Below are positions 42,948 through 44,846 of a DNA stretch of 64,000 nt, piece after piece. The position numbers were made by a program, and so were the translations under genes. The stretch is from the NCBI GenBank assembly GCA_006226495.1, contig SBGU01000053.1, forward strand, positions 1 to 64,000, in the 5' to 3' direction. Source of the stretch: Alphaproteobacteria bacterium. Lineage in GTDB: Bacteria; Pseudomonadota; Alphaproteobacteria; Sphingomonadales; Kordiimonadaceae. The first letter of the stretch is position 1, and every line of letters starts with the position of its first letter. The notes under the pieces were generated by a model that saw nothing but the letters and a program-made list of their open reading frames with translations, ran no database searches and was not told the origin of the DNA.

Positions 42948-43910
42948 ATGAGCCTTGATATCACTGACGTAGAAGAACTCAGGAGTATCGACCTGGAAGC
43001 GCGGGTGGAAATCGCACGCAAGGTCGGCCGTGTGCTCGCGCGCCAGAATAGTGGCGACAGCGACCGCGATGCGATCGAGCTTGCGCGTCTGTTGGTCGAG
43101 GATGTGGCGGTTTCCGTGCGCGAGGCGCTGTCGCGCGAGCTGAAATCCTGCAATTTCCTGCCCAAGGATATCATCGCCCGGCTGGCACAGGATATCGACC
43201 AGGTATCCATGCCGTTCCTCGTGGCCTCGCAGGCCATGGACGACAATATCCTCGAGGAAATCGTGCGCAGTTGCGGCGACGGCGCCCAGACCGCCATCGC
43301 ACGCCGGAACGGGCTGTCGGAAGCCGTGGGGTATGCGATCAGCGATGTCGGCAGCCAGGATGCGGTCGAAACCCTGGTGGACAATGACAGTGCTTTCCTG
43401 TCCGAGCGTTCCTGCGCCCGGGTCGTGGACCGTTTCCCGGAAGAACGCAGCCTCATGGAAAAGCTGGCATCCCGCGCCGACCTGCCGGCGGCGCTGGTAG
43501 AACGGGTGATCTTCAAGGTTTCCAAACATTATGGCGAATATCTGAACCAGAAGTTCGGGCTGTCGACCGACTATGCCTCCTATCTGGTGTCCATGGCCAA
43601 CCGGCAGGTTTTCTCCCGCACCCTCGAGATGGCGCCGCTGTCGGAGATCGAGAATTACCTGACCCAGCTTCATGGCATGAAGGGGCTGACCTCCGACGTG
43701 CTTTTGAACTATCTGCAGAACAGCAATGTGCGGCTTTTCACCATGGCGCTGTCGGTGCTGATGGGCCGCCCCTATGACGTTATGGAAATGGCGCTTGCCA
43801 AAGGTGACAAGAAGCTGCTGGCGCGGCTTCTGGAAACTGCGGGCTTTTCCAAATCGGTTATCGGTGTGCTGCTGATCGCCTACGAGCGCCTGTTGCCGAG
43901 CGGGAAATAG
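42948..43910 (+). CDS. DUF2336 domain protein
   Basis: A 320-residue, all-helical DUF2336 protein typical of alphaproteobacteria, with VGRVLARQNSGDSDRDAIELARLLVEDVAVSVREALSRELKSC near the N-terminus and HEAT-like helices after. The DUF2336 class is not biochemically defined; members are often near motility or regulatory genes. There is no signal peptide or membrane helix. The 3' flank carries the sigma-54 enhancer dyads, which begin 2 nt after its stop. Confidence 0.82.
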   Translation: MSLDITDVEELRSIDLEARVEIARKVGRVLARQNSGDSDRDAIELARLLVEDVAVSVREALSRELKSCNFLPKDIIARLAQDIDQVSMPFLVASQAMDDNILEEIVRSCGDGAQTAIARRNGLSEAVGYAISDVGSQDAVETLVDNDSAFLSERSCARVVDRFPEERSLMEKLASRADLPAALVERVIFKVSKHYGEYLNQKFGLSTDYASYLVSMANRQVFSRTLEMAPLSEIENYLTQLHGMKGLTSDVLLNYLQNSNVRLFTMALSVLMGRPYDVMEMALAKGDKKLLARLLETAGFSKSVIGVLLIAYERLLPSGK

Positions 43911-43911
43911 C

Positions 43912-43980
43912 TGTCCCAAATCGGGACATGTACCAATTTGGTACATTTCAAATTTATGCAGACTGTCCCAAGATGGGGCA
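43912..43980 (+). promoter_or_regulatory. Three 17-bp dyads, putative sigma-54 activator sites
   Basis: Three dyads of identical length fit one consensus TGTCCCAA-N-TTGGGACA: TGTCCCAAATCGGGACA (43912-43928), TGTACCAATTTGGTACA (43929-43945, directly abutting) and TGTCCCAAGATGGGGCA (43964-43980). Their centres lie about 127, 110 and 75 bp upstream of the predicted start point. The middle one resembles an NtrC site (TGCACC-N5-GGTGCA). Such distal repeated sites are how sigma-54 enhancer-binding proteins work. The activator itself is not identified. Confidence 0.72.
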
Positions 43981-44020
43981 GGTAATCGGCAACTCATTGA
44001 TATTGCTATGGATTGGTTTC

Positions 44021-44035
44021 TGGCACATGCCTTGC
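44021..44035 (+). promoter_or_regulatory. Sigma-54 (-24/-12) promoter
   Basis: The sequence TGGCACATGCCTTGC has the GG and GC elements at the exact spacing of the consensus TGGCACG-N4-TTGC, with one mismatch (A for the last G of the left half). The start point is expected near 44047. It is preceded by three activator dyads and followed by a predicted small RNA. Confidence 0.8.
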
Positions 44036-44046
44036 GATTGTCTGTG

Positions 44047-44172
44047 TGCCTGTCGGGTTTTGCCTGAGATCCGGGAGGTACTCGAAACGAGTTACGTGCC
44101 GATCATTTGCCTGAGTGATCAGCACCGGAACTGTGCGGCGGACGGGTTAATCCCCTGTCCGCCCGTTTTTTT
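44047..44172 (+). ncRNA. Predicted sigma-54-dependent small RNA
   Basis: A transcript of about 125 nt is predicted from the sigma-54 promoter to a strong terminator. It has no ATG. The sequence TTTGCCTGAG occurs twice (44059-44068 and 44106-44115) and each copy sits in a hairpin loop: CGGG/TCCG stem around the first, GATCA/TGATC stem around the second. A third hairpin, ACTCG-AAA-CGAGT, lies between them. Repeated loop sequences suggest a target-binding seed. Its targets are unknown. Alternatively this could be an attenuated leader of the acyltransferase gene. Confidence 0.7.
44137..44172 (+). terminator. Intrinsic terminator of the predicted small RNA
   Basis: Stem GGCGGAC / GTCCGCC (44137-44143 with 44157-44163) extended inside by GGG / CCC, followed by CG and seven T residues. 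It precedes the next gene by about 90 nt. Confidence 0.85.
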
Positions 44173-44264: not shown

Positions 44265-44846
44265 GTGTCCGAAAAACTGATCTATGACAGCCGCTTTTTC
44301 AGCGGTGTGCTGCATTATGTTGGCAAGGCCTTCCTGTGGGCCGGGCGCTGGCGCCTTGTCGGGCACCTGCCGGATACGCCGAAATTTGTTGCGATCGCAG
44401 CGCCACATTCCAGCAACTGGGACTTTCCCCTGTTCATGGCTGTCGTGGGCGCCTTCCGCATTCGTGTGCGTTTCCTCGGCAAACACAGCCTGTTCGAAGG
44501 CCCGTTCGGCTGGCTGTTCTATTGGCTGGGCGGCATTCCGGTCCGGCGCGAAAGCGCGGGGGCACGTGACCTGGTGGACGAAGCCGTAACGGCCTTTACG
44601 AACCACGAGCAGATGATCCTGGGCCTGGCACCCGAAGGCACCCGGTCGAAGGTCGAGCGCTGGAAAAGCGGTTATTACCGGATCGCGATCGCGGCTGGTG
44701 TGCCGATCCAGCTTGCGTTTGTTGATTCCACCACACGCGAAATCGGCCTTGGCCCCTTATTCCTGCCGACCGGCGACATGGCGGCCGACACGGCCACCAT
44801 CCAGGCTTTTTATGAAGGCAAAACCGGCGTGCGCCGCAAGGGCTAG
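44265..44846 (+). CDS. Lysophospholipid acyltransferase family protein
   Basis: A 193-residue acyltransferase of the PlsC-like superfamily starting at a GTG after GGGAAG. The catalytic HSSNWD (H-x4-D) is at residue ~48 and the phosphate-contact APEGTRSK at ~123, while FLGKHSLFEGPFGWLF and GGIPVRR complete the family pattern. It lacks an obvious transmembrane anchor and is shorter than PlsC. It probably moves an acyl chain to a glycerol- or polyol-phosphate. It follows the predicted sRNA terminator and converges on the FAD dehydrogenase gene. Confidence 0.88.
   Translation: MSEKLIYDSRFFSGVLHYVGKAFLWAGRWRLVGHLPDTPKFVAIAAPHSSNWDFPLFMAVVGAFRIRVRFLGKHSLFEGPFGWLFYWLGGIPVRRESAGARDLVDEAVTAFTNHEQMILGLAPEGTRSKVERWKSGYYRIAIAAGVPIQLAFVDSTTREIGLGPLFLPTGDMAADTATIQAFYEGKTGVRRKG

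Follow-up and report, generated by a model that had tools for sequence, protein, structure and literature searches.

We describe a candidate family of trans-acting, base-pairing small RNAs (sRNAs) in the Kordiimonadaceae, which we predict to bind Tad-pilus mRNAs where their translation begins, probably as repressors. We put the probability of this reading at about 0.73. The sRNA was located in a stretch of 64,000 nucleotides (nt) of contig SBGU01000053.1 (the window), part of a 4.3 Mb alphaproteobacterial genome in 60 contigs (the window genome), where it occupies 44046-44172 on the plus strand. Its start is inferred from promoter spacing and its end is set by the terminator. The bounds of our covariance model, R1, agree, an agreement that is not independent of the window sequence since R1 was partly built from it. 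The RNA of about 127 nt is predicted to fold into two hairpins, each presenting UUGCCUGA(G), and a terminator.

A conserved RNA with two identical loops

The sequence TTTGCCTGAG occurs twice in the predicted transcript, at 44059-44068 and 44106-44115. An exact 10-mer repeat within 126 nt has a chance of about 0.006 (about 6,800 position pairs over 4^10). Hairpin 1 (44046-44081) presents TTTTGCCTGAGATC and hairpin 2 (44095-44128) presents TTTGCCTGAG, the loops being closed by the arms CGGG/TCCG and GATCA/TGATC. An intrinsic terminator, GGCGGACGGG ... CCTGTCCGCC, follows at 44137-44172, with arms at 44137-44146 and 44154-44163 and then seven T; all of these features lie on the plus strand. A first-pass annotation, made from the sequence alone, had described the repeat, the closing arms, the strong terminator, a sigma-54 promoter upstream and a segment free of ATG, and all of these details hold, with zero ATG in 44046-44172. 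A 92-residue open reading frame spans the region, but we reject a coding function: the frame begins upstream of the promoter, and a conserved peptide would be hard to reconcile with stems of variable length and the lack of ATG.

The fold of 44044-44172 (129 nt) has an energy of -61.3 kcal/mol (z-score -5.6), equalled by none of 200 dinucleotide shuffles. A third hairpin, ACTCG-AAA-CGAGT, had been placed between the two loops. Its letters are present at 44080-44092, but it does not form in the fold of the window RNA itself, and a middle hairpin is predicted in only two (G006 and G004) of the 11 sequences folded, which were the window RNA and ten relatives. Conservation covers both loop hairpins and the terminator but not the third hairpin. 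Outside the terminator, the invariant columns in an alignment of 11 sequences are the blocks TTGCCT, in the first loop, and TTGCCTGA, in the second. Of 50 loops compared, 49 read TTGCCTGA and the remaining one TGTGCCTGA, the form of the first loop in G023; the second loop of G009 reads TTCGCCTGA.

The stems around these loops differ in sequence between species and mostly remain paired. Their folding was compared with 200 shuffles of the flanks only, in 24 family genomes and the metagenome-assembled genome (MAG) NORP254, with G008 and G009 left out. No more than 10 of the 200 shuffles folded as well in 15 of 25 species for hairpin 1 (median z -1.8) and in 20 of 25 for hairpin 2 (median z -3.0). 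Support failed for hairpin 2 of G017 (101/200) and hairpin 1 of NORP254 (67/200). RNAalifold reported two-sided changes at a single hairpin 1 pair and at three terminator pairs, a count limited by a sequence-based alignment that could not place the outer stems.

With R1, which was built from nine sequences, the RNA is detected at E<1e-4 in 25 of the 29 Kordiimonadaceae genomes, among them the window genome. We added G008 by eye as a 26th carrier (E 0.09; 4.6e-6 in a smaller search). Among the 29, G022 and G025 gave no match, and a weak match in G024 (E 0.38) was judged not to be this RNA. The multi-seed layout proposed in the first-pass annotation is supported: both loops are kept in 26 of 29 genomes, in variable stems that mostly beat shuffles, and the pattern is not one of a terminator conserved alone. 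Among 385 genomes sampled over the Alphaproteobacteria under stricter filters, the sole real match was the window's own; three matches outside the family (E<=0.001) were terminator-like and lacked the two loops. A blastn search of 59 genomes (the window genome and 58 relatives) matched ten, its own included. Short matches in G022 and G039 were to other sequence, and seven relatives remain.

An exact two-loop pattern scan of a species-genome collection returned 33 stretches. In eight of them a sigma-54 promoter stands at -39 to -43, and each of these eight belongs to the Kordiimonadales, judged by its name or by being identical with a family genome. Seven of the eight are followed by a T-run; the remaining one (L047, K. 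marina) is truncated where its locus ends. The nearest named relatives of the window genome among the pattern matches are Kordiimonas species and Kordiimonadales MAGs, and we place the window genome in the Kordiimonadaceae on this basis. The other 25 stretches lack a sigma-54 promoter and are not RNAs of this type. In a Bacteroidetes MAG, Ww25, tandem copies with a period of about 84 nt contain TTGCCTGAGATC...TTGCCTGA (L055, L056; single copies L038, L060); this is apparently an unrelated repeat, without promoter or T-run.

Complementary sites at Tad-pilus gene starts

The window genome holds 16 further TTTGCCTGAG sites, mostly intragenic, among them the leader of cpaA and a glycine riboswitch. 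The cpaA complement lies directly before the prepilin peptidase gene (PF01478), in the leader CTCAGGCAAAAGCACAGGCACCATTCAGGCAAACATTCAGGCACACCATG. We found cpaA in 26 of the 29 family genomes. TCAGGCA occurs within about 30 nt of its start in 12 of the 26 and TCAGGT in eight more (read by eye); G024 and G025 lack both the sRNA and the cpaA site. As a side observation, most family genomes have by eye a terminator-like hairpin between cpaA and the preceding gene (e.g. GCCGCCGGGGG...CCGGCGGC and a T run; L166-L191).

We then took Tad loci, each about 20 kb long, from 20 of the 26 cpaA genomes, picked after the cpaA leaders had been seen, and counted 7-mers from -30 to +30 around their 380 gene starts. 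Open reading frames were called by a simple rule, which left cpaA uncalled in three of these 20. TCAGGCA and CAGGCAA tie as the commonest 7-mer, at 27 of 380 starts; the antisense of TCAGGCA is found at two, and 630 permutations of its letters average 1.2. By gene, TCAGGCA is present at 8 of 17 cpaA, 9 of 18 tadG-like and 1 of 7 starts in a second tadG-like group, and at 9 of 338 starts (antisense 2) of other Tad-locus genes. The window, the sRNA loci and the activator loci together give 1 of 156 (antisense also 1). The tadG-like proteins match PF13400, mostly with VWA domains (six scanned, that of G013 just under the cut-off), and several of their sites sit after the start codon (G013, G018, G007). 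When ten tadG leaders, picked mostly for visible sites, were paired with the sRNA, 0 to 7 of 200 shuffles did as well; the anchors of three tadG leaders were not located. The suggestion that the complement of the loops might lie in 5' regions elsewhere in the genome is thus borne out, with sites near start codons concentrated in Tad-pilus genes.

The position of these sites suggests how the sRNA may work. A sigma-54 activator bound to palindromes upstream of the promoter, probably with IHF, would respond to its signal by switching transcription on. The loops, perhaps aided by a chaperone, would base-pair with (C)UCAGGCAA, which lies on the ribosome-binding site or immediately downstream of it in cpaA, tadG-like and probably other Tad mRNAs. 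Pairing that starts at the ribosome-binding region and first codons would block translation, by analogy with the sRNA NfeR1 (see below), and pilus assembly would be shut down. Pairing could instead be real and activating, for instance if it unfolded the leader or shielded the mRNA, since sequence does not reveal whether regulation is positive or negative. We consider this unlikely, because the sites lie over the ribosome-binding region or the first codons, where NfeR1 is described as repressing its target.

Predicted pairing and apparent co-change of loops and sites

Counting G-U pairs, the contiguous helix between the sRNA and its cognate cpaA leader extends over 16 nt in G011 and over 17 nt in G004. 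Eight of 23 cpaA leaders beat all 200 of their shuffles, and in 15 of 23 no more than 10 of 200 did as well; the 15 include G002 and G027, in which pairing runs through a stretch other than the TCAGG site. In 16 of 23 cases, a genome's own RNA scored above the mean of the other 24 RNAs on its cpaA leader.

In two genomes both partners differ from the common form. In G001, loop 1 is TTGCCTGATATC and the cpaA site GATATCAGGCA, and the own RNA ranks first of 25 on this leader (29 vs 22 for the next best). G023 combines the loop TGTGCCTGA with the site TCAGGCACA, its own RNA ranking second of 25 (23 vs 24 for that of G001). G003 has the loop TTGCCTGAGATC and the site GATCTCAGGCA; the NORP254 RNA, which is similar to that of G001, also has TTGCCTGAGATC. 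Of six leaders ranked in this way, the own RNA also came first in G011 and second in G010 and G004 (a tie). Loop and cpaA site appear to have changed together in G001 and, less clearly, in G023.

Several results weigh against Tad mRNAs as the targets. Four carriers of the sRNA (G002, G019, G020, G026) have neither TCAGGCA nor TCAGGT near the cpaA start, and the TCAGGT sites of eight genomes pair only via G-U and could be plain Shine-Dalgarno sequences. Eight of 23 cpaA leaders were not below 10 of 200 shuffles. The own RNA fell below the mean of the others in 7 of 23, the window genome included (27.5 vs 29.5), and in G003, the sixth leader ranked, it came just seventh of 25. Whole-leader duplex energies are mixed: of the 16 genomes compared in which cpaA was called, it ranks first in 6; whole-duplex energy is a poor target discriminator. 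Complements close to an ATG number 496, summed, vs 284 for an AGT control, a weak test given that G022, which lacks the sRNA, has the same excess (12 vs 4). GATCTCAGGCA is mostly intragenic (50 of 59 places examined), and the genomes share ancestry, so that counts are not independent.

Some of these results would fit TCAGGCA being a local Shine-Dalgarno variant that resembles the loops by coincidence, the RNA having other targets. CAGG or AGG stands at ribosome-binding distance, eight genomes have TCAGGT, and in 7 of 23 the own RNA is no better at cpaA than the average of the others. However, the matches extend beyond any Shine-Dalgarno sequence (CCAGATCTCAGGCAGA in G011, AGCAGATTTCAGGCAAA in G004), the tadG sites named above lie after the start codon, and the motif is rare at other genes of the same loci; we regard this explanation as very unlikely. 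Least probable is a protein sponge of the CsrA type, its loops titrating a protein and the mRNA sites being unrelated: a pair of identical loops on variable stems would serve a sponge no less than a multi-seed RNA, but gene starts hold the reverse complement and not the loop sequence (27 against 2 of 380), loop and site appear to co-change in G001 and less clearly in G023, and the compared loop cores lack GGA, the motif of CsrA-type sites and Csr/Rsm sponge loops.

Tandem sites and other candidate targets

Complements occur in tandem before cpaA in the window genome (four CAGGCA), before tadG in G010 (two) and 45-85 nt upstream of a BTLCP protease gene in G009 (three), itself a candidate target. 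Because of these tandem sites, one can envision a bivalent action in which the two loops clamp two sites on one leader, giving a steep, cooperative attachment switch whose loop and sites coevolve in each species. We offer this as a speculation that is more probably wrong than right.

Double-site searches, in which about 40 of 124 places were examined and most were intragenic, point to a DUF2336 paralogue in G004 and a TPR lipoprotein in G002. Other candidates are a DUF3892-like small protein in G011 (under the Pfam cut-off) and a look-alike in G010 (no Pfam match). These double-site genes, the BTLCP protease gene included, are leads only. The window genome has 172 TCAGGCA...ATG sites; of 20 chosen by eye among those listed, two are near a called start. 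In G010 (L093, C7:53719), a small receiver-like gene (PF00072, under cut-off) with two TCAGGCA in its leader is followed by a look-alike. In one genome only, GATCTCAGGCAAAG lies by eye in the first codons of an rpoN-like gene (L251, G028:C2:387511); if real, this site would make a feedback loop. The glycine riboswitch aptamer of the window genome (RF00504, 67 bits; L001:1484-1580, minus strand, G000:C3) contains CTCTCAGGCAAAAGG, and 12 nt (TCTCAGGCAAAA) are complementary to loop 1. We take this stretch to be part of the general glycine riboswitch consensus, and the complementarity is probably due to chance; the sRNA could touch glycine metabolism via the riboswitch.

Promoter, upstream sites and genomic context

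The sigma-54 promoter, TGGCACatgccTTGC, lies at 44021-44035 on the plus strand. Its -24/-12 elements are of the TGGC type in 24 of 26 family loci and deviate in G013 and G008. Three palindromes of 17 nt that match or nearly match TGTnnCAnnnTGnnACA lie upstream on the same strand (43912-43928, 43929-43945 and 43964-43980) and are likely enhancer sites for a sigma-54 activator. In the 150 nt upstream of 25 loci, such sites (at least 8 of 10 fixed bases) number 2.48 per promoter vs 0.06 in mononucleotide shuffles, and many of them fall around -109, -91 and -56, counted from where the -24 element begins. In each of four genomes a more stringent tandem pattern has one to four occurrences, the sRNA locus always among them. 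Between the enhancer sites and the promoter, 43990-44002 on the minus strand carries a site, TATCAATGAGTTG, that resembles the IHF consensus; 16 of 25 loci have a looser form of it, again between palindromes and promoter, at -30 to -32.

The window genome has 11 PF00158 matches. Among the strongest seven, which were scanned, NtrC, NtrX, FlbD and PspF pass NCBIfam cut-offs, and L334, L337 (LuxO-like) and L338 (PEP-CTERM-regulator-like) fall under them. We assign no activator because palindromes of the sRNA type are absent from the fetched flanks of all 11 genes. Separately, the window genome has palindromes resembling the LuxO operator, TTGCATCATGCAA (twice) and TTGCATGCTGCAA, at C31:98176, C32:17427 and C47:109911 of G000 (L345-L347). 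The first two have similar surroundings, and the genome also encodes the LuxO-like L337; no sigma-54 promoter was found within the next 400 nt of the three on either strand.

The sRNA gene is flanked upstream by a DUF2336 protein gene (42948-43910, plus strand; PF10098, 3.1e-44) and downstream by an acyltransferase gene (44265-44846, plus strand; PF01553, 2.4e-15). The covariance search of relatives that had been proposed recovered the RNA mostly beside these genes: within the 1.5 kb or less examined per side, DUF2336 adjoins 24 and the acyltransferase 20 of 26 sRNA loci, and G019 has neither. The two genes are conserved context, and we do not claim that they belong to the circuit.

Relation to known sRNAs

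Against all Rfam families, which presumably include an alpha-r14 model, the RNA has no match at the gathering score (best relaxed E 1.8). The first-pass annotation knew of no described RNA with this layout. That claim does not stand, as the alpha-r14 sRNAs (NfeR1 of Sinorhizobium meliloti) are described as carrying the same motif three times, in hairpins whose stems vary (PMC10746234). The three CCUCCUCCC motifs of NfeR1 are anti-Shine-Dalgarno sequences; LsrB is its activator and NtrC its repressor, and it silences ntrBC and ABC-transporter mRNAs, one target being silenced at the translation initiation region (PMC10746234). The Kordiimonadaceae RNA shares the repeated loop motif and variable stems. 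Unlike NfeR1, it has two UUGCCUGA loops, a sigma-54 promoter and predicted Tad-pilus targets, and the 50 loops compared above do not contain the CCUCCUCCC motif.

The Qrr sRNAs of Vibrio also have a sigma-54 promoter with upstream activator sites, and their LuxO operator is TTGCAnnnTGCAA. The cores of the TGTnnCAnnnTGnnACA palindromes are unlike that site, and loops and targets differ as well. AbcR1 and AbcR2, alphaproteobacterial sRNAs that work through short motifs, act at translation starts; their motif, promoter and targets are all unlike those of the RNA described here. Conserved complementary sites in predicted target mRNAs, as expected of a trans-acting sRNA, are present. We found no description of this RNA in the open-licence literature on Kordiimonas or Kordiimonadales sRNAs, DUF2336 and Flp-pilus sRNAs, broader topics being covered by their top listings. 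Multi-loop base-pairing sRNAs are a known kind of regulator; the family, its seed and its regulon appear to be new.

If our reading is correct, the RNA represents a new sRNA family whose predicted regulon is clear, and its hosts are marine bacteria on which searches by name turned up no sRNA work. Tad pili are machinery for permanent surface attachment, and the family would provide a post-transcriptional switch for them that is gated by sigma-54. The apparent co-variation of loop and target across species would also offer a natural data set on the coevolution of sRNA seeds and their targets. In the cell, the sRNA would probably decide when attachment pili are produced.
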